DNA from: Variovorax sp. 54
Lineage (GTDB): Bacteria; Pseudomonadota; Gammaproteobacteria; Burkholderiales; Burkholderiaceae_C
Direction of reading: 5' to 3'
Length of the DNA stretch: 64,000 bases
NCBI RefSeq assembly: GCF_002754375.1
Contig: NZ_PEFF01000001.1
Span: forward strand, 5,535,501-5,599,500
The translations under genes were made by a program, and so were the position numbers. The notes under the pieces were generated by a model. It was not told where the DNA came from. It did not search any database and worked only from the letters and a program-made list of their open reading frames with translations. This document shows positions 9,084 to 17,694 of this stretch, piece after piece. Position 1 is the first letter of the stretch; every line of letters begins with the position of its first letter.

Positions 9084-10070
9084 ATGAAGAGAAAGCAATT
9101 CCTGTCGGCGGGCCTCGCGCTCGCCGCCACCGCGCTGCTGCCGTTGCACGCCTTGGCGCAGGCCGACACATGGCCGCAGCAGAAACCCGTGACCATCATC
9201 GTGCCGTTCCCGGCCGGCGGTTCCACCGACATGGTGGCGCGCGCGCTGGCGCAGCAGCTGCAGGCCAAGCTCGGCGGCAGCTTCGTGGTCGACAACCGAC
9301 CCGGCGCCACCGGCACCATCGGCACCGGCTTCGTGCGGCGCGCACTGCCCGACGGCTACACGCTGCTGGTGTCGTCGCTCGGCGCCTTCGTCGTCACGCC
9401 GCACCTGCAGAAGAGCGTGCCCTACGACGCCACCAAAGACTTCGACTACATCAGCGTGCCCGTGCAGGCGCCCAACGTGCTCGTGGCCAACGTTGCGCGG
9501 CCCGAACACACCGTGGCCGACGTGCTCGCGCTCTTGCGCAAGACGCCGGGCAAGGTCTCGTTCGCGAGCTCTGGCAACGGCTCGTCCGACCACCTGTCGG
9601 CCGAACTCTTCTGGCAGCAATCGAAGACCGAAGGCGTGCACGTGCCCTACAAGGGCGGTGCGCCGGCCGTGAACGATCTGCTGGGCAACCAGGTCGATTT
9701 TTCGTTCCAGAACGTGAACGCCGTGCTGCCGCACATCCGCGCCGGCAAGCTGCGCGCGATTGCCGTCACCGGCGACAAGCGCTCGCCCGTGCTGCCCGAC
9801 GTGCCCACGCTCGCCGAAGCCGGCGTGAAGGGCGCGGAGGTTTACTCGTGGCAGGGCATGGCCGCACCGAAGGGCCTGCCGCCCGCCACGAAGAAGAAGC
9901 TGAGCGACGCGGTCATTGCCGCCATGCAAGACCCCGAGACGAAGAAACGCATGCTCGACCAGGGCCTGGAAATCGTCGCGAGCACCCCAGAAGACTTCAC
10001 TGCTTTCCAGTTGCGCGAATGGGCGCGATGGAAGACGCTCATCGACACCCGCCACATCACTGCCGACTGA
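9084..10070 (+). CDS. Bug/TctC-family tripartite tricarboxylate binding protein 2
   Basis: 328-aa periplasmic binding protein with signal peptide [20 protein letters not shown] and cleavage near ALAQA. The mature part shows [49 protein letters not shown] and [15 protein letters not shown], the standard Bug blocks. The ATG at 9084 is chosen because it starts the signal peptide; an open frame begins 57 bp earlier but only adds Arg/Pro-rich residues. It is only moderately similar by eye to the Bug protein at 6,502, so a recent duplication is unlikely. It lies 16 bp before the glucarate dehydratase gene, so a glucarate-like ligand is a reasonable guess. Confidence 0.92.
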
Positions 10071-10086
10071 GCCACCGAGCCCGAAG

Positions 10087-11448
10087 ATGACCTCTCCTGA
10101 ATCCGCTGCTTCCCCCGCCGTGTCGGGCGCGCCCGTCGTCACCGCCATGCGCGTCGTGCCCGTTGCGGGCCACGACAGCATGCTGATGAACCTCAGCGGC
10201 GCGCACGGCCCGTTCTTCACGCGCAACCTGCTGATCCTCACCGACAGCGCCGGCCACACCGGCGTGGGCGAAGTGCCGGGCGGCGAGAAGATCCGCCAGA
10301 CGCTCGAGGACGCACGCGACCTCATCGTGGGCCAGCCCATCGGCAACCACAACGCCGTGCTCAACCGCATGCGCAACGCGTTTGCCGCGCGCGACAGCGG
10401 CGGGCGCGGCCTGCAGACCTTCGACCTGCGCGTGACCATTCACGCCGTCACCGCCGCCGAAGCCGCTCTGCTCGACCTGCTGGGTCAGCACCTGGGCGTG
10501 CCCGTGGCCGCGCTGCTCGGCGAAGGCCAGCAGCGCGATGCGGTGCAGATGCTCGGCTACCTCTTCTACGTGGGCGACCGCACGAAGACCGACCTGGCGT
10601 ACGAGACCGACCCCGGCGCCGACAACGACTGGTTCCGCCTGCGCCACGAAGAGGCCATGACGCCCGAGGCCATCGTGCGACTGGCCGAAGCCACGCATGC
10701 GCGCTACGGTTTCACCGACTTCAAGCTCAAGGGCGGCGTGCTGCGCGGCGAGGAAGAGGTCGAAGCCATCCGCGCGCTGCACGAGCGCTTTCCGCAGGCG
10801 CGCGTCACGCTCGACCCGAACGGCGGCTGGCTGCTGGCCGACGCCATCCGCCTGTGCCGCGACCTGCACGGCGTGATGGCCTATGCCGAAGACCCCTGCG
10901 GCGCCGAGGGCGTGTTCTCGGGCCGCGAGGTGATGGCCGAGTTCCGCCGCGCCACCGGCCTGCCCACCGCCACCAACATGGTCGCCACCGATTGGCGCGA
11001 GATGGTGCACAGCCTCTCGCTGCAGTCGGTCGACATCCCGCTGGCCGATCCGCACTTCTGGACGATGCAGGGTTCGGTGCGCGTGGCGCAGCTGTGCCAG
11101 GCCTGGGGCCTGACCTGGGGCTCGCATTCGAACAACCACTTCGACGTGTCGCTCGCGATGTTCACGCACGTGGCCGCTGCCGCACCCGGCAAGGTCACGG
11201 CCATCGACACGCACTGGATCTGGCAGGACGGCCAGCGCCTCACGAAGGCGCCGCTGCAGATCGAAGGCGGCCTCGTGCAGGTGCCCACGCGCGGCGGCCT
11301 GGGCATCGAGCTCGACATGGCCGAGGTCGAGAAGGCGCACCAGCTGTACCTGACGCATGGCCTGGGCGCGCGCAACGACGCGCAGGCGATGCAGTACCTC
11401 ATTCCCAACTGGACTTTCGACAACAAGCGGCCTTGCATGGTCCGCTGA
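10087..11448 (+). CDS. gudD: Glucarate dehydratase (enolase superfamily)
   Basis: 453-aa enolase-superfamily enzyme that dehydrates D-glucarate to 5-dehydro-4-deoxyglucarate (EC 4.2.1.40). The N-terminal capping domain has [21 protein letters not shown]. The barrel carries the KxK-type base in [11 protein letters not shown], the metal ligands in TLDPNGGW and YAEDPCG, the Asn in [10 protein letters not shown] and the catalytic His in [10 protein letters not shown]. All of these match GudD rather than mandelate racemase. It overlaps no gene and follows the second Bug gene by 16 bp. Together with the galactarate dehydratase of the opposite operon it lets the cell use both aldarates, and so both uronates. 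Confidence 0.94.
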
Positions 11449-11461
11449 AGGAAACGACGCA

Positions 11462-12898
11462 ATGCAGAACTTCGACAACCTCATCAACGGCGAATGGCTG
11501 GCCGGCCAAAGCTACAGCCCCAACATCAACCCCAGCAACCTGGCCGACGTGCTGGGCCAGTACACGCAGGGCGACAAGGGCCACGTCGACGCGGCGGTGG
11601 CTGCTGCCACAGCCGCCTTCCCCGCATGGGCGACCGGCAGCATCCAGGCGCGCTCCGACGCGCTCGACAAGATCGGCACCGAGATCCTTGCGCGCAAGGA
11701 AGAACTCGGCACGCTGCTCGCGCGTGAAGAAGGCAAGACCAAGGCCGAAGGCATCGGCGAGGCCACGCGTGCGGGGCAGATCTTCAAGTTCTTCGCGGGC
11801 GAGTGCCTGCGCCTGTCGGGTGAGCTGCTGCCTTCGGTGCGTCCGAACATCGGCGTGGAGATCACGCGCGAGCCGGTCGGCGTGGTCGGTCTCATCACGC
11901 CGTGGAACTTCCCCATCGCGATTCCTGCCTGGAAGATCGCTCCGGCATTGGCCTTCGGCAACTGCGTGGTGCTCAAGCCCGCCGACCTCGTGCCGGGCTG
12001 CGCCTGGGCGCTGGCCGAGATCATCAGCCGCTCGGGCATTCCGGCCGGCGTGTTCAACCTCGTGATGGGCCGCGGCAGCGTGATCGGCGATGCGCTGGTG
12101 AACCACCCCGGCATCCATGCGATCAGCTTCACGGGCTCGGTGGGCGTGGGCCGCAACATCGCGGTGCAATGCGTCACGAATCACAAGAAGGTGCAGCTCG
12201 AAATGGGCGGCAAGAACCCGCAGGTGGTGCTCGACGATGCCGACCTCGCGCAGGCCGTGGAGCTCAGCGTGCAGAGCGCGTTCTACTCGACGGGCCAGCG
12301 CTGCACGGCATCGAGCCGCCTCATCGTGACCGAAGGCATCTACCCGAAGTTCATCGAGGCGATGAAGACGCGCATGGCGAAGATCAAGGTCGGCGACGCG
12401 CTCGCGCAGGGCACCGACGTGGGCCCGGTCTCGTCGAAGTCGCAACTCGACCAGGACATGGAATACGTGGCCATCGGCAAGGGCGAAGGCGCCACGCTGG
12501 CGGCCGGTGGTGAGCTGCTGAAGCTGGAGACCGACGGCTACTACATGTCGCCTGCGTTGTTCAGTGAGTCGGCCGCAAACATGCGCATCAACCGCGAGGA
12601 AGTGTTCGGCCCAGTGGCGAGCGTGATCCGCGTGAAGAACTACGAAGAGGCGCTGGCCACGGCCAACGACACCGAGTTCGGTCTGTCGGCTGGCATCGCG
12701 ACCACTTCGCTGAAGTACGCGACGCACTTCAAGCGCCACAGCCAGGCGGGCATGGTGATGGTGAACCTGCCGACGGCGGGGGTGGACTATCACGTGCCGT
12801 TCGGTGGCCGCAAAGGGTCGAGCTACGGGCCGCGTGAGCAGGGCAAGTACGCGCAGGAGTTCTTCACAACGGTGAAGACGGCGTACACGCTGGCTTGA
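11462..12898 (+). CDS. 2-oxoglutarate semialdehyde dehydrogenase (aldehyde dehydrogenase family)
   Basis: 478-aa NAD(P)+-dependent aldehyde dehydrogenase. The catalytic cysteine is in YSTGQRCTASSRL, the general-base glutamate in VQLEMGGKNPQ, and the coenzyme loop in ISFTGSVGVG. TPWNFPIAIPAWKIAPAL is the usual Asn-containing active-site strand. Placed 13 bp after gudD and downstream of kdgD, it should oxidise 2-oxoglutarate semialdehyde to 2-oxoglutarate (EC 1.2.1.26), the last step of the pathway. Substrate assignment is from context; succinate semialdehyde-type enzymes look similar. It is the last gene of the operon and is followed by a terminator. Confidence 0.9.
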   Translation: MQNFDNLINGEWLAGQSYSPNINPSNLADVLGQYTQGDKGHVDAAVAAATAAFPAWATGSIQARSDALDKIGTEILARKEELGTLLAREEGKTKAEGIGEATRAGQIFKFFAGECLRLSGELLPSVRPNIGVEITREPVGVVGLITPWNFPIAIPAWKIAPALAFGNCVVLKPADLVPGCAWALAEIISRSGIPAGVFNLVMGRGSVIGDALVNHPGIHAISFTGSVGVGRNIAVQCVTNHKKVQLEMGGKNPQVVLDDADLAQAVELSVQSAFYSTGQRCTASSRLIVTEGIYPKFIEAMKTRMAKIKVGDALAQGTDVGPVSSKSQLDQDMEYVAIGKGEGATLAAGGELLKLETDGYYMSPALFSESAANMRINREEVFGPVASVIRVKNYEEALATANDTEFGLSAGIATTSLKYATHFKRHSQAGMVMVNLPTAGVDYHVPFGGRKGSSYGPREQGKYAQEFFTTVKTAYTLA

Positions 12899-13214: not shown

Positions 13215-14753
13215 TCAGGCCAATGGCGCCCTGCGACTGCGCCGCATCAGAAACTCGATCAGCTCGAAGATGCCTTCGCTGATCAACGCCATGGCCGCAG
13301 CCGGCAGCGCACCGGCCATCAACAGCTCGCGATCATTGAGCGCCAGCCCCGTCACGATGCGCTCGCCAAAGCCGCCCGCGCCGATGAAGGCCGCGATGGT
13401 GGCGGTGCCGATGGCAATCGCAGTGGCTGTTCGCACGCCTGCCAACAACGTGGGCAGCGCAAGAGGCAGCAGCACCACCTGAAGGCTCTGCGGCGGTGTC
13501 ATACCCAGCGCGGTGCCGGCCAGTCGCAGGCCATTGGGCACCTCGGTCAACCCGGTCACGGTGTTGCGCATGATCGGCAACAGCGAGTACAGCGTGAGCG
13601 CGATGAGTGCGGGCAGCGCGCCGATGGCACCGAGCAGCGAGATCAGCACCGCGAGCAGCGCCAGCGAGGGCACGGTCTGCATCACGCTCGCAAAGCCCAG
13701 CACCACGGCGCGCAGCCGCAGGTGCGGAAACACGAGGATCGCGAGCGGCACGCCGATGAGGATCGCCACGCCGACCGACACCGCCACCAGCAGCAGATGC
13801 TGGCGCGCAAGCGGCCAGAGGTCGGGCCCGAAGAGCTTGGCCGTGAAGCCGCGCGCGGCGCTCGGCGGTGTCTTGCCGTCTTTGGTGGCGCCGGCGAGGA
13901 AGTCGCGCGCGATGGTGTCGAAGCGCACGCCCTGCAGTTCGGCGCGTGCGTTCATCGCGATCATGGCGTGCTCGTCGATGGTGCCTTCGAGCGCCTGCAA
14001 TGCGGCCCAGGCTTTCGGCAGCCGCGCCGGCAGGTCGAGGCGGTAGAGCACCACGGCGTCGTAGCGCGGAAAGTACTTCTTGTCGTCTTCCAGCACACGC
14101 AGGCCAAGGTGGTCGATCTTGGCGTCGGTGGTGTAGATGTCGATGGCGTCGATCTGCTTGGCCGTCATCGCCTCGTAGGCCAGGCCGTGGTCGAGACCGG
14201 TCGGTGTCTGCGTGAAGCCGTAGCTTGCCGCCAGGCCTTTCCATCCGTCGGCGCGGCCGATGAATTCGTTCGATAGCCCGATGCGCAGCTCGGGGTGCTT
14301 CGCCAGGTCGCTCAGCGTGCGCAGCCCGAGATTGTCGGCATCGGCGGCGCGCACGGCCAGCGCGTAGCCGTCGTTGAAGCCCATTGGAATCGCCACGCCG
14401 AGGCCGAGCGGCGCGAGCGCGGCGTTCATCGCTTCGCGCGTGTCGGCGGGCGAGCCCTTGAGGATTTCGAGTGCGATGGTGCCGGTGTATTCGGCGTAGA
14501 GGTCGATGGCGCCGGAACGCAATGCTTCGTAGACGATGGCCGTGTTGCCCAGGCCCTGGCGAATGACGGGCGGCGATGCGGTGTGCGGCGCGGCGGTCTG
14601 CGCCAGCACCTCGGCCAGGATGTACGACTCGGTGAAGCGCTTGGAGCCAACGCGCAAGGTCTCGTCGGCGGCCTGCGCACAGGGCGCAGCGGCCAGCCAG
14701 AGCATCGCGGGAAGCCACAGGGCGGCGCGCCAGAAGCTGCGAAGCAGGTGCAT
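13215..14753 (-). CDS. ABC transporter permease/substrate-binding fusion, OpuC/ProWX type
   Basis: 512-aa fusion for quaternary amines or related osmolytes. A signal peptide (residues 1-28) is followed by a periplasmic binding domain of the glycine betaine/choline type (about 32-290; VGSKRFTESYILAEVLAQ and DLYAEYTGTIALEIL are hallmarks), then a five-to-six-helix permease domain (about 315-505) with the EAA-type loop GMTPPQSLQVVLLPLALPTLLAGVRTATAIAIG. In most relatives the order is permease then binding domain, so this order is a less usual fusion. No ATPase gene is next to it, so it must borrow one from elsewhere. Ligand cannot be told from sequence. Confidence 0.85.
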   Translation of the reverse strand: MHLLRSFWRAALWLPAMLWLAAAPCAQAADETLRVGSKRFTESYILAEVLAQTAAPHTASPPVIRQGLGNTAIVYEALRSGAIDLYAEYTGTIALEILKGSPADTREAMNAALAPLGLGVAIPMGFNDGYALAVRAADADNLGLRTLSDLAKHPELRIGLSNEFIGRADGWKGLAASYGFTQTPTGLDHGLAYEAMTAKQIDAIDIYTTDAKIDHLGLRVLEDDKKYFPRYDAVVLYRLDLPARLPKAWAALQALEGTIDEHAMIAMNARAELQGVRFDTIARDFLAGATKDGKTPPSAARGFTAKLFGPDLWPLARQHLLLVAVSVGVAILIGVPLAILVFPHLRLRAVVLGFASVMQTVPSLALLAVLISLLGAIGALPALIALTLYSLLPIMRNTVTGLTEVPNGLRLAGTALGMTPPQSLQVVLLPLALPTLLAGVRTATAIAIGTATIAAFIGAGGFGERIVTGLALNDRELLMAGALPAAAMALISEGIFELIEFLMRRSRRAPLA

Positions 14754-14863: not shown

Positions 14864-15922
14864 ATGAAAAAGACCAAGCACGCGCTCCCCGGTCCCGACA
14901 TCCATGGCCTGCGCGAGCTGCCCGGACTGCGCGTGGACGGCTACAGCCTGCAGCTGCGCGACAAGAACGGTTTCGTCGGCGACCAGGCCAGCCAGACGGC
15001 GTTTCGCGAACTGCTCGAGCGCTGGCGCAAGCGGCGCCGCAAGACGGGCCGCGACCCGCTGGGCAAGACCCATTCGCGCAACTTGAGCAAGAAGGACCTC
15101 GACCGCGCGCTGCAAGAGAAAACCGCCACGGCCGCCGGCGATGTGATGCATGGCGCCATCGAGGAGTTCGCGGAAGAACTGGCCTTCGTGATCCAGCGCT
15201 TCGTGCGCCAGCCCTCGTGGCGCAAGGTGCAGCGCATCGTGGTCGGCGGTGGTTTTCCCGAGAGCGACGTGGGCGAGCGCGCGATCCTGGAGGCGGGCGC
15301 GATGCTAGAAGACCTGGGCGTGCATGTGCAGCTGGGCCGGCTGTCGCACAACGTCGACGACGGCGGGCTGATCGGCTGGGTGCACCTGACGCCGCCGGCC
15401 CTGTTGAAGGGGCACGACGCGATTCTTGCGGTGGACATCGGCGGCACCAACGTGCGCTGCGGCATCGTGAAGACGCGCCATCGCAAGGCGCCCGACTTCT
15501 CGCGCGCGAAAGTGGTCCGGCGCGAGAAGTGGCGTCATGCCGACGACGGCCCGAACCGCAGCCACATGGTCGAGCGCATCGCCGACATGCTCGAGGACAT
15601 GGTGATCTACGCCGATCGCCACAAGATCCGGCTCGCGCCCTTCATCGGCATCGGCTGCCCGGGGTTGATCCGCGCCGACGGCTCGATCGCGCGCGGCGCG
15701 CAGAACCTGCCGGGCGACTGGGAGAGCCGCGCCTTCCACCTGCCGGCTGCGCTGTGGCAACGCCTGCCGATCATCGGCTCGGGCGCGACGCTGGTGCTCA
15801 TGCACAACGACGCGGTGGTGCAGGGCCTGAGCGAGCTGCCCTTCATGCGCGACGTGCGGCACTGGGGCGTGCTGACCATCGGCACGGGGCTGGGCAACGC
15901 CAGCTTCACGAACCGGCGCTGA
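14864..15922 (+). CDS. ROK-like (ASKHA fold) protein with swapped halves
   Basis: 352-aa protein. Residues 187-352 carry the first half of a ROK sugar kinase: the phosphate-1 motif ILAVDIGGTNVRCGIV (Asp191), GIGCPG (262-267), the Asn-Asp pair of the catalytic site in MHNDAVVQG (315-316) and phosphate-2 GTGLG (340-344), where the protein almost ends. Normal ROK proteins continue for about 150 residues. Residues 100-180 instead resemble the C-terminal ROK part: VQRIVVGGGFPES and DDGGLIGW, the latter like the DDAGLIGAA end of ROK proteins. No Zn-binding CxCGxxGC is seen. The first 95 residues are basic and unrecognised. Circular permutation is my inference; sugar kinase activity is unproven. ATG 14864 is preferred (MKKTKHALPG). 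Confidence 0.7.
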   Translation: MKKTKHALPGPDIHGLRELPGLRVDGYSLQLRDKNGFVGDQASQTAFRELLERWRKRRRKTGRDPLGKTHSRNLSKKDLDRALQEKTATAAGDVMHGAIEEFAEELAFVIQRFVRQPSWRKVQRIVVGGGFPESDVGERAILEAGAMLEDLGVHVQLGRLSHNVDDGGLIGWVHLTPPALLKGHDAILAVDIGGTNVRCGIVKTRHRKAPDFSRAKVVRREKWRHADDGPNRSHMVERIADMLEDMVIYADRHKIRLAPFIGIGCPGLIRADGSIARGAQNLPGDWESRAFHLPAALWQRLPIIGSGATLVLMHNDAVVQGLSELPFMRDVRHWGVLTIGTGLGNASFTNRR

Positions 15923-15930
15923 GTCTGGCC

Positions 15931-17694
15931 TTACAGATCCTCGGGCCGCAGTTCCGCGCCCACGCGCGCAACGGCCGAGGTGGTGGCGACATTGCCCGCC
16001 GCATCGGTGGCGCGCAGTTCGATGTTCGCCAGGCCCGCGCGCGCGGGTGTCCAGCTGCAGGCGTAGGGCGCGGCGCGCAGTGCGCAGACGGTCTTGCCGT
16101 CGACGATGAAGGCCAACTCGGCCACGCTGACATCGTCGGACGCGCTGGCCGACAGCCGCACCGGCAGGCCGGCCGCCGACGAGGCCATGGGCGGCACATT
16201 GAGCGTCACGGTCGGTGCCGTGGTGTCGGCGGGCGCGCGCACGATCACCTGCGCCGAGGCGACCTCGGCATTGCCCGCGGCATCGACCGCGATCACGCGG
16301 ACGATCTGCACGCCGGGCGCCGTGGGCGTCCAGTGGCAGGTGTAGGGCGGGGCAGTGAAGGTGCAGATCGGCAGGCTGTCGGTGCCGATCACCTTCACGC
16401 CGAACACGCCGACGTTGTCGACCGCCACGGGCGCCAGCGCCACCGGCTGGCCCACGGTCGCCATCGCGGGCGCGGCCAGCGACACCGCAGGCTTCTGGCT
16501 GTCGGGCACGCCCAGCGGCAGGTCGATGGTGAAGGCCGCTTGCCCCTGCACCGCCTTCTGTTCGAAGGCGTCGAAGATGGTGAACCACGTCGCGCCCGGT
16601 GCGCGGCCCGAGGCCTGGGCCTTCACGAGCAGCGTGGTCTTGCCGACGGCGAAGCAGCTGAAGCCGCAGCGCCAGTCGAAGACGAAGCGGCCTTCGGCAT
16701 TGGTTGTGCCTTGTGCGATGGGCTCCAGCGGCTTGCCGGCGCCCAGGTCGCGCCACACCGAAACCGGCGCGCCGGCCAGTGCGGCGCCGCTCTCACGCTC
16801 GGTCACGCGCACCTGCGTGGCGGTGGTCCCGGCCATGAACTTCGAGCTGCCGAGCTTGGGCCAGTCGCGCCAGTCGGTGTTGATCTGCGCCTTGGTGCCT
16901 TCGGTGAAGCGGATCAGGCCGAGCGTGGCGACACGGTTGGCGGCCGGGTCGTAGCGCTGCTCGAACACGGTGCCCAGCAGCGGGTCGAGGCGCCAGTGCT
17001 GGCGCGTCCACCAGTAGCGGTCGGTGTGCTTCACGAGGGCGAGGTCGCTGGCGGGCGCGGTCTCGGTGGTGTCGGCGACGGCGATGGCGTTGTAGTACTC
17101 GCCGGAGCCGGCGCCGAACACATGCTCCAGCTCGTGCAGCAGGGTCTTGAGCTGGCGGCCGAGGTAGTCCTTCTCGGTGGACTCGGGCGCGGCGGAGGTG
17201 ATGGCGCGCGACAGGCGCAGCGGGTCGTGGATGGCGGTCCAGTTCAGGTTCCACGTCACGCCGGTGGGCGGGAAGGTGGTGCTCGTGGTCAGGCCGCCAT
17301 GGCTGTAGCCGCGCTTCGACGGCCCGACGCACAGCACGATCTCGCCGCCGGCCACGCCGTTGAAGCCGCAGGGTGGCGCCGCACCGGGCGCGACGATCTG
17401 CAGGTCTTTCGCGGGGTCGAAGGTGAAGCTGCGCACCGTCTCGCGCATGAACACGGTGTTGAGGTCGGCCACGTACTGCGCGAGGCGGCGGCCGGCCTCG
17501 GGCGCGCCGATGTCGGCCGCCAGTTGCGGGTCGATGAAGAAGCGCAGGCGGTGCACGCTCGGCGTGGCGCGGCCGACTTCGTTCAGGGCCGCCCAGGTCG
17601 GGGCGGCGGACAGCGGCAGCAGCGTGGCCAATGCGACAGGCAAGGCTGCGCCCAGCCGGCGCGCGAGCGCCAGCAGCGAATCCATGGAGGGCAT
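15931..17694 (-). CDS. Secreted HExxH protein with two Ig-like domains (candidate metallopeptidase)
   Basis: 587 aa with a signal peptide (residues 1-35, cleavage near TWA-AL). The N-terminal domain (about 40-300) has HELEH at 187-191, followed by GAGSGEYY; the Glu at about 199 could be a third metal ligand, which is the gluzincin plan, but the family is not known to me. Paired cysteines (CGFNG, LCVG) suggest an exported fold. A middle domain (about 305-400) looks like a carboxypeptidase-regulatory or Ig-like fold. Two tandem Ig-like repeats follow (about 415-495 and 505-580), each with APPYxCxWTP and ATDAAGN-type ends. It is probably surface-located or secreted. GGGGAG 8 bp before ATG 17694 fixes the start. 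Confidence 0.72.
   Translation of the reverse strand: MPSMDSLLALARRLGAALPVALATLLPLSAAPTWAALNEVGRATPSVHRLRFFIDPQLAADIGAPEAGRRLAQYVADLNTVFMRETVRSFTFDPAKDLQIVAPGAAPPCGFNGVAGGEIVLCVGPSKRGYSHGGLTTSTTFPPTGVTWNLNWTAIHDPLRLSRAITSAAPESTEKDYLGRQLKTLLHELEHVFGAGSGEYYNAIAVADTTETAPASDLALVKHTDRYWWTRQHWRLDPLLGTVFEQRYDPAANRVATLGLIRFTEGTKAQINTDWRDWPKLGSSKFMAGTTATQVRVTERESGAALAGAPVSVWRDLGAGKPLEPIAQGTTNAEGRFVFDWRCGFSCFAVGKTTLLVKAQASGRAPGATWFTIFDAFEQKAVQGQAAFTIDLPLGVPDSQKPAVSLAAPAMATVGQPVALAPVAVDNVGVFGVKVIGTDSLPICTFTAPPYTCHWTPTAPGVQIVRVIAVDAAGNAEVASAQVIVRAPADTTAPTVTLNVPPMASSAAGLPVRLSASASDDVSVAELAFIVDGKTVCALRAAPYACSWTPARAGLANIELRATDAAGNVATTSAVARVGAELRPEDL

Follow-up and report, generated by a model that had tools for sequence, protein, structure and literature searches.

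Evidence for a natural circular permutation in a ROK-related protein of Variovorax sp. 54

A ROK-related protein with its halves in swapped order

A 64,000-nucleotide stretch of the Variovorax sp. 54 genome (contig NZ_PEFF01000001.1, positions 5,535,501 to 5,599,500; hereafter the window) encodes at 14864..15922 on the forward strand a protein of 352 residues. We consider it probable that this gene, present in one copy in the host genome, specifies a naturally circularly permuted ROK-type protein, likely an ATP phosphotransferase with an altered acceptor pocket. A preliminary description made from the sequence had placed DIGGT at residues 191–195, GIGCPG at 262–267, MHND at 313–316 and GTGLG at 340–344, and the translation agrees at each position. 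It was also correct in placing VVGGGFPES and DDGGLIGW ahead of DIGGT, except that the former starts at residue 126 rather than 127. Its proposal that this order reflects a circular permutation is supported by the rotation optimum of a family profile and by the mapping of the two halves of the protein onto complementary halves of ROK structures.

Single-sequence evidence for the permutation is weak, and profile evidence therefore carries the case. The family alignment comprised the permuted protein and 60 relatives (46–95% identity) selected as full-length matches. Fifteen ordinary ROK proteins served for comparison: three of the four from the same genome (the degenerate L114 was left out) and 12 of the 14 in the set L097–L110 (without L102 and L108; rows had to span at least 40% of L097 to be retained). 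We then rotated the family profile at 44 regularly spaced cuts, plus seven finer ones, and aligned each rotation to the ordinary ROK profile. Unrotated, only its last half aligned, to ROK 12–158, with a score of 118.9. Cuts at 176–186 scored 133.6–135.0, with the maximum of 135.0 at cut 180, and aligned 287–289 columns running from ROK 12–15 through 315–317 of 318; scores at the remaining cuts ranged from 64.6 (worst) to 129.4. None of 200 shuffles of the columns of the N-terminal half (N-half) reached 135.0 (mean 118.8, maximum 124.6), and the reversed N-half gave 118.4. Aligned alone, the N-half scored 38.1 against a maximum of 26.5 among 200 shuffles.

The swapped order is kept in all 61 aligned members, chosen as full-length matches, and is found also in 20 of 20 matches in the host family and in 18 of 18 strong loci in the phylum. 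A profile of ordinary ROK proteins matches its first half in every one of the 61 members and, weakly, its second half in 26, where the second-half match lies upstream of the first-half match without exception (26/26); 22 of these 26 members derive from the search with a distant member.

Predicted structure and cut site

The structure prediction proposed in the preliminary description agrees with its reading: the full-length model has a predicted local distance difference test score (pLDDT) of 86.6 and a predicted template modelling score of 0.85, and both halves map onto ROK structures. The features of the gene, all on the forward strand, are as follows.

14864..15922 (+): whole gene, permuted ROK-type protein, 352 amino acids and stop (translation; full-length relatives)
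14864..14926 (+): residues 1–21, variable low-confidence extension with conserved HG (14–15) and L19 (pLDDT, alignments)
14927..15409 (+): residues 22–182, equivalent of the second (C-terminal) ROK half
14969..14992 (+): GFVGDQAS (36–43), counterpart of ROK GCLEAYAS (alignments)
15026..15091 (+): residues 55–76, holding an insert relative to ROK; R55, D64, P65 and K76 invariant (alignments)
15239..15265 (+): VVGGGFPES (126–134), GGG motif of the second ROK half; G128–G130 invariant, aligned with ROK SGG/GGG
15356..15379 (+): DDGGLIGW (165–172), counterpart of the ordinary ROK C-terminal motif D.AGLLGA; D165, G168, L169 and G171 invariant in the 61-member alignment
15380..15415 (+): residues 173–184, linker between the former C- and N-termini (rotation optimum, cuts 176–186)
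15416..15919 (+): residues 185–352, equivalent of the first (N-terminal) ROK half
15434..15451 (+): DIGGTN (191–196), phosphate-1 loop; D191, G193, G194 and N196 invariant in 61 of 61
15803..15811 (+): HND (314–316), invariant in 61 of 61, aligned with ROK ND
15881..15898 (+): GTGLGN (340–345), phosphate-2 motif, invariant in the 61-member alignment

To locate the cut site, nine rotated members were aligned jointly with the ordinary ROK proteins. GTGLGNASFTN of the permuted family aligns with ROK GTGVGGGLILN, and the family motif LPxVxVDxY aligns with the strand that starts at ExGH (EFGHLRV). The new termini therefore fall within the ExGH-bearing hairpin. The permuted protein stops seven residues past GTGLGN, where ROK proteins continue into that hairpin, and its extension (pLDDT 37 for residues 1–10, 58 for residues 11–20) precedes the strand that in ordinary ROK proteins follows ExGH. 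GFVGDRAS aligns with GCLEAYAS but lacks the cysteines and the glutamate; after it come, in order, the helices, GGG and D.AGLIGA. In the Variovorax protein this motif reads GFVGDQAS, with Gly39 in place of Glu; Asp40 is invariant in the 61-member alignment and conserved at ≥90% in another. The unrecognised 95-residue basic head of the preliminary description was not borne out, as residues ~22–95 correspond to the middle of a ROK protein. On the basis of the joint alignment, the head is mainly ROK core with an insert at ~55–76.

Comparison with ROK proteins

The top Protein Data Bank (PDB) match of the family profile (E 7.2e-4) is the kinase domain of human GNE, an N-acetylmannosamine kinase (PDB 2yhy/2yhw), on which residues 183–351 superpose at 2.0 Å over 147 residues with 25% identity. 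Relative to GNE, the halves of the permuted protein are swapped, and ExGH and CxCGxxGCxE are missing. The ROK glucokinase of Streptomyces griseus (PDB 3vgk) has a Zn site and an ordinary chain order. Residues 185–351 of the permuted protein fall on its residues 2–142 and residues 22–167 on 142–302; in the permuted protein the order is swapped and the Zn site is absent. Inorganic polyphosphate/ATP-glucomannokinase (PDB 1woq; NF045942) likewise has the ordinary order, unlike the permuted protein. Fusobacterium nucleatum NanK (PDB 5nck) matches both halves, again in ordinary chain order. According to PMC5458393, NanK lacks the Zn site, as does the permuted protein, but keeps ExGH.

The same source lists as ROK features DxGxT in the N-terminal region, a strictly conserved catalytic Asp, ExGH, CxCGxxGCx(E/D), and sugar-kinase or repressor activity (PMC5458393). 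The permuted protein has DIGGT, with D191, G193 and G194 invariant, although at residue 191 of 352 and in swapped order rather than N-terminal, and D316, aligned with ROK ND, is invariant in all 61 members. ExGH is absent and its aligned place is occupied by the new termini and xLPxV. The zinc motif is also absent, as previously described, with GFVGDQAS in its place and cysteines only at residues 199 and 265. Because ExGH, the zinc motif and the order of halves all depart from the published list, strict ROK membership fails, and the proteins are best called a permuted ROK-related family.

The permuted protein passes the gathering score of Pfam PF00480 (24.9 vs 22.9 bits) with its first ROK half only, residues 188–350 matching profile positions 2–141 of 294 (E 1.8e-5), and PF00480 matches 55 of the 61 family members at E 0.01. 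Scores for hexokinase PF00349 (17.4 bits, gathering score 24.3) and for the polyphosphate-glucose phosphotransferase model NCBIfam NF045942 (19.2 bits, cut-off 250) fall below threshold. A polyphosphate glucokinase (PPGK) was considered as the parent and rejected: 72 of 100 genomes match NF045942 in some way and none exceeds its cut-off. Among the ROK loci compared with the rotated profile, L097 scored best (35.9 bits) and the PPGK-like L138 reached 17.9 bits, a ranking that is biased because L097–L110 were chosen for resemblance to the permuted protein.

Proposed origin and function

Comparison of profiles and models indicates that the former C-terminal motif DDGGLIGW is now tied by a brief linker to what was the N-terminal lobe (DIGGTN...HND...GTGLG), with the chain break falling in the hairpin that separates GTGxG from ExGH. 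A likely origin would be a ROK gene that was duplicated in tandem and then trimmed at either end. As the ATP loops and Asp base do not vary among the aligned members, ATP-dependent phosphotransfer is the likeliest predicted activity; the conserved motifs suggest that ATP is most likely still bound and its gamma-phosphate transferred, with D316 as the putative catalytic base. The acceptor pocket would be unlike that of known sugar kinases, because ExGH, the zinc motif and the CxE glutamate have been lost from it and the new N-terminus is found there instead. A more tentative reading is a distinct enzyme family, distributed among alpha- and betaproteobacteria, whose acceptor site arose anew when the permutation cut the sugar-clamping ExGH hairpin and whose substrate would not be one of the usual hexoses or amino sugars. 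Both the invariance of key motif residues and the substitution rates indicate that the motif pattern is more than accidental. Among close relatives there is clear purifying selection, with a ratio of nonsynonymous to synonymous substitution rates (dN/dS) of ~0.10–0.27 against six other Variovorax genes (dN 0.024–0.110, dS 0.166–0.645); against the more distant L030 and L052 the ratio is 0.34 and 0.62.

No permuted ROK protein and no permuted hexokinase-fold sugar kinase was found in the literature, as covered by titles and abstract openings in an open-access full-text library. The family would represent a natural and widely kept permutation in the acetate/sugar-kinase/Hsp70/actin fold, in which a two-lobed kinase was re-cut at its substrate loop, and it offers a direct test of the need for ExGH and zinc in ROK catalysis. 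Relatives are mostly annotated as 'ROK family protein', and their function may well be misnamed, since databases assign ROK family or glucokinase from half a match.

Alternative explanations

Several results weigh against the permutation, and some of them would fit a truncated ROK N-terminal half placed behind an unrelated helical domain, with the GGG and GLIG motifs arising by chance. Modelled alone, the N-half has a pLDDT of 66, and Foldseek with that model returned nothing at E 0.001; its profile retrieved no ROK chain from the PDB sequences, and its hhalign probability alone is only 60–64%. In 23 of 61 members, among them the Variovorax protein, the N-half region gives a weak hit to an incorrect stretch of the ROK profile (up to 6.7 bits, with correct hits reaching 9.6). 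With the ordinary-ROK profile, 12 of 61 members give no second match, and the Variovorax protein itself gives no tail match. Searched against ordinary ROK proteins, the rotated profile still scores mainly on the first half. Rotation of the single sequence raises its Pfam score only from 24.9 bits unrotated to 26.5 (cut 182), with 22.4 bits at cut 100 and 23.5 at cut 230, and is uninformative. Set beside the rotation optimum and the mapping of both halves, such a fusion seems very improbable.

A permuted ROK fold that has given up small-molecule phosphorylation and instead acts as an ATP- or sugar-binding regulator is a more serious contender, though still an unlikely one. The absence of ExGH, the zinc motif and CxE is consistent with such a role, as catalysis might be abolished or altered without ExGH, and distant groups have no common gene neighbourhood; however, the key residues of DIGGTN, HND and GTGLGN are invariant in 61 of 61 members and Pfam detects no DNA-binding domain in the Variovorax protein. 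Another candidate, a permuted kinase acting on trehalose or a different glucoside, was hinted at by otsB, which is divergent to the permuted gene in two plasmid stretches of Rhizobium, and by L129, where the permuted gene adjoins a trehalose phosphatase gene (Rhizobium-type plasmid stretches with divergent otsB: L134 6056–8044, L135 6057–8047, L129 7056–9037). A tblastn search with one Rhizobium OtsB query against 1.5–10 kb flanks of the loci collected matched only L134, L135 and one further genome (L093 and L129, the same place), 93–100% alike, and in Phyllobacterium the permuted gene comes instead after genes for a LacI regulator and an aldolase, next to genes of the threonate pathway. With otsB restricted to Rhizobium-type stretches, the trehalose link was rejected as a general context, and we give this substrate very little credence.

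Relatives and distribution

Relatives from other bacteria of soil and roots share the swapped order. In a protein search, at least 7999 candidates passed E 0.001, out of 8000 scored; among the best 120 matches, the top ones are full-length and those named are from Variovorax or other Burkholderiales. A search with a distant member yielded at least 8000 passing candidates, and its best 120 include Reyranella and Enhydrobacter. In genomes of the Genome Taxonomy Database, 403 of 504 pattern-matched stretches encode a relative, and the best 80 of the 403 were retained. Of 299 Pseudomonadota genomes (the host included), 51 match at E 0.001. The full-length form is found in 16 of these, at 18 loci (E <1e-100, all ending at query residue 351–352), and the other 35 match only within residues 159–352, as expected of ordinary ROK proteins. 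Two of the 299, large genomes of one genus (g82; G200 and G217), have two copies each. The permuted gene is present in 20 of 250 genomes of the host family. Among 72,556 plasmids there are 206 matches, 204 of them over ≥80% of the query, mainly in Rhizobium (111) and Sinorhizobium (79).

A search of the host genome with the Pfam ROK model, in which the permuted gene was not listed, found four other ROK proteins, all in ordinary order. One of them, L114 (G000:C1:5856968-5857846), lacks DxGxT and the Zn motif and has VKLGRRGAEW where the phosphate loop would be. In L096, the strand antisense to the permuted gene of a distant member (1501–2511, + strand) is open over all 337 codons, and a database protein of 433 amino acids (P0122) matches this antisense reading at 51%.

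Gene neighbourhood

Across 25 stretches compared, no common immediate neighbour was seen; the largest neighbour cluster occurs in seven, all of one family (f41), and some clusters several kb from the permuted gene recur between families. The 20 neighbours examined with Pfam belonged to diverse, unrelated types. In the window, a fused glycine-betaine-type substrate-binding and permease ABC gene (OpuAC + BPD_transp_1; 13215–14753, − strand) is divergent from the permuted gene. In L030, L052 and L058 a related gene is likewise upstream and divergent, separated in L030 by a predicted open reading frame. Convergent with the permuted gene is a gene for a 587-residue protein with one bacterial Ig domain (Big_7; 15931–17694, − strand), which has no relative among the other 24 stretches. 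Farther upstream, at 9916–12898 (+ strand), an enolase-superfamily (MR_MLE) gene is followed by an aldehyde dehydrogenase gene, a pair that we take to be part of a sugar-acid pathway.
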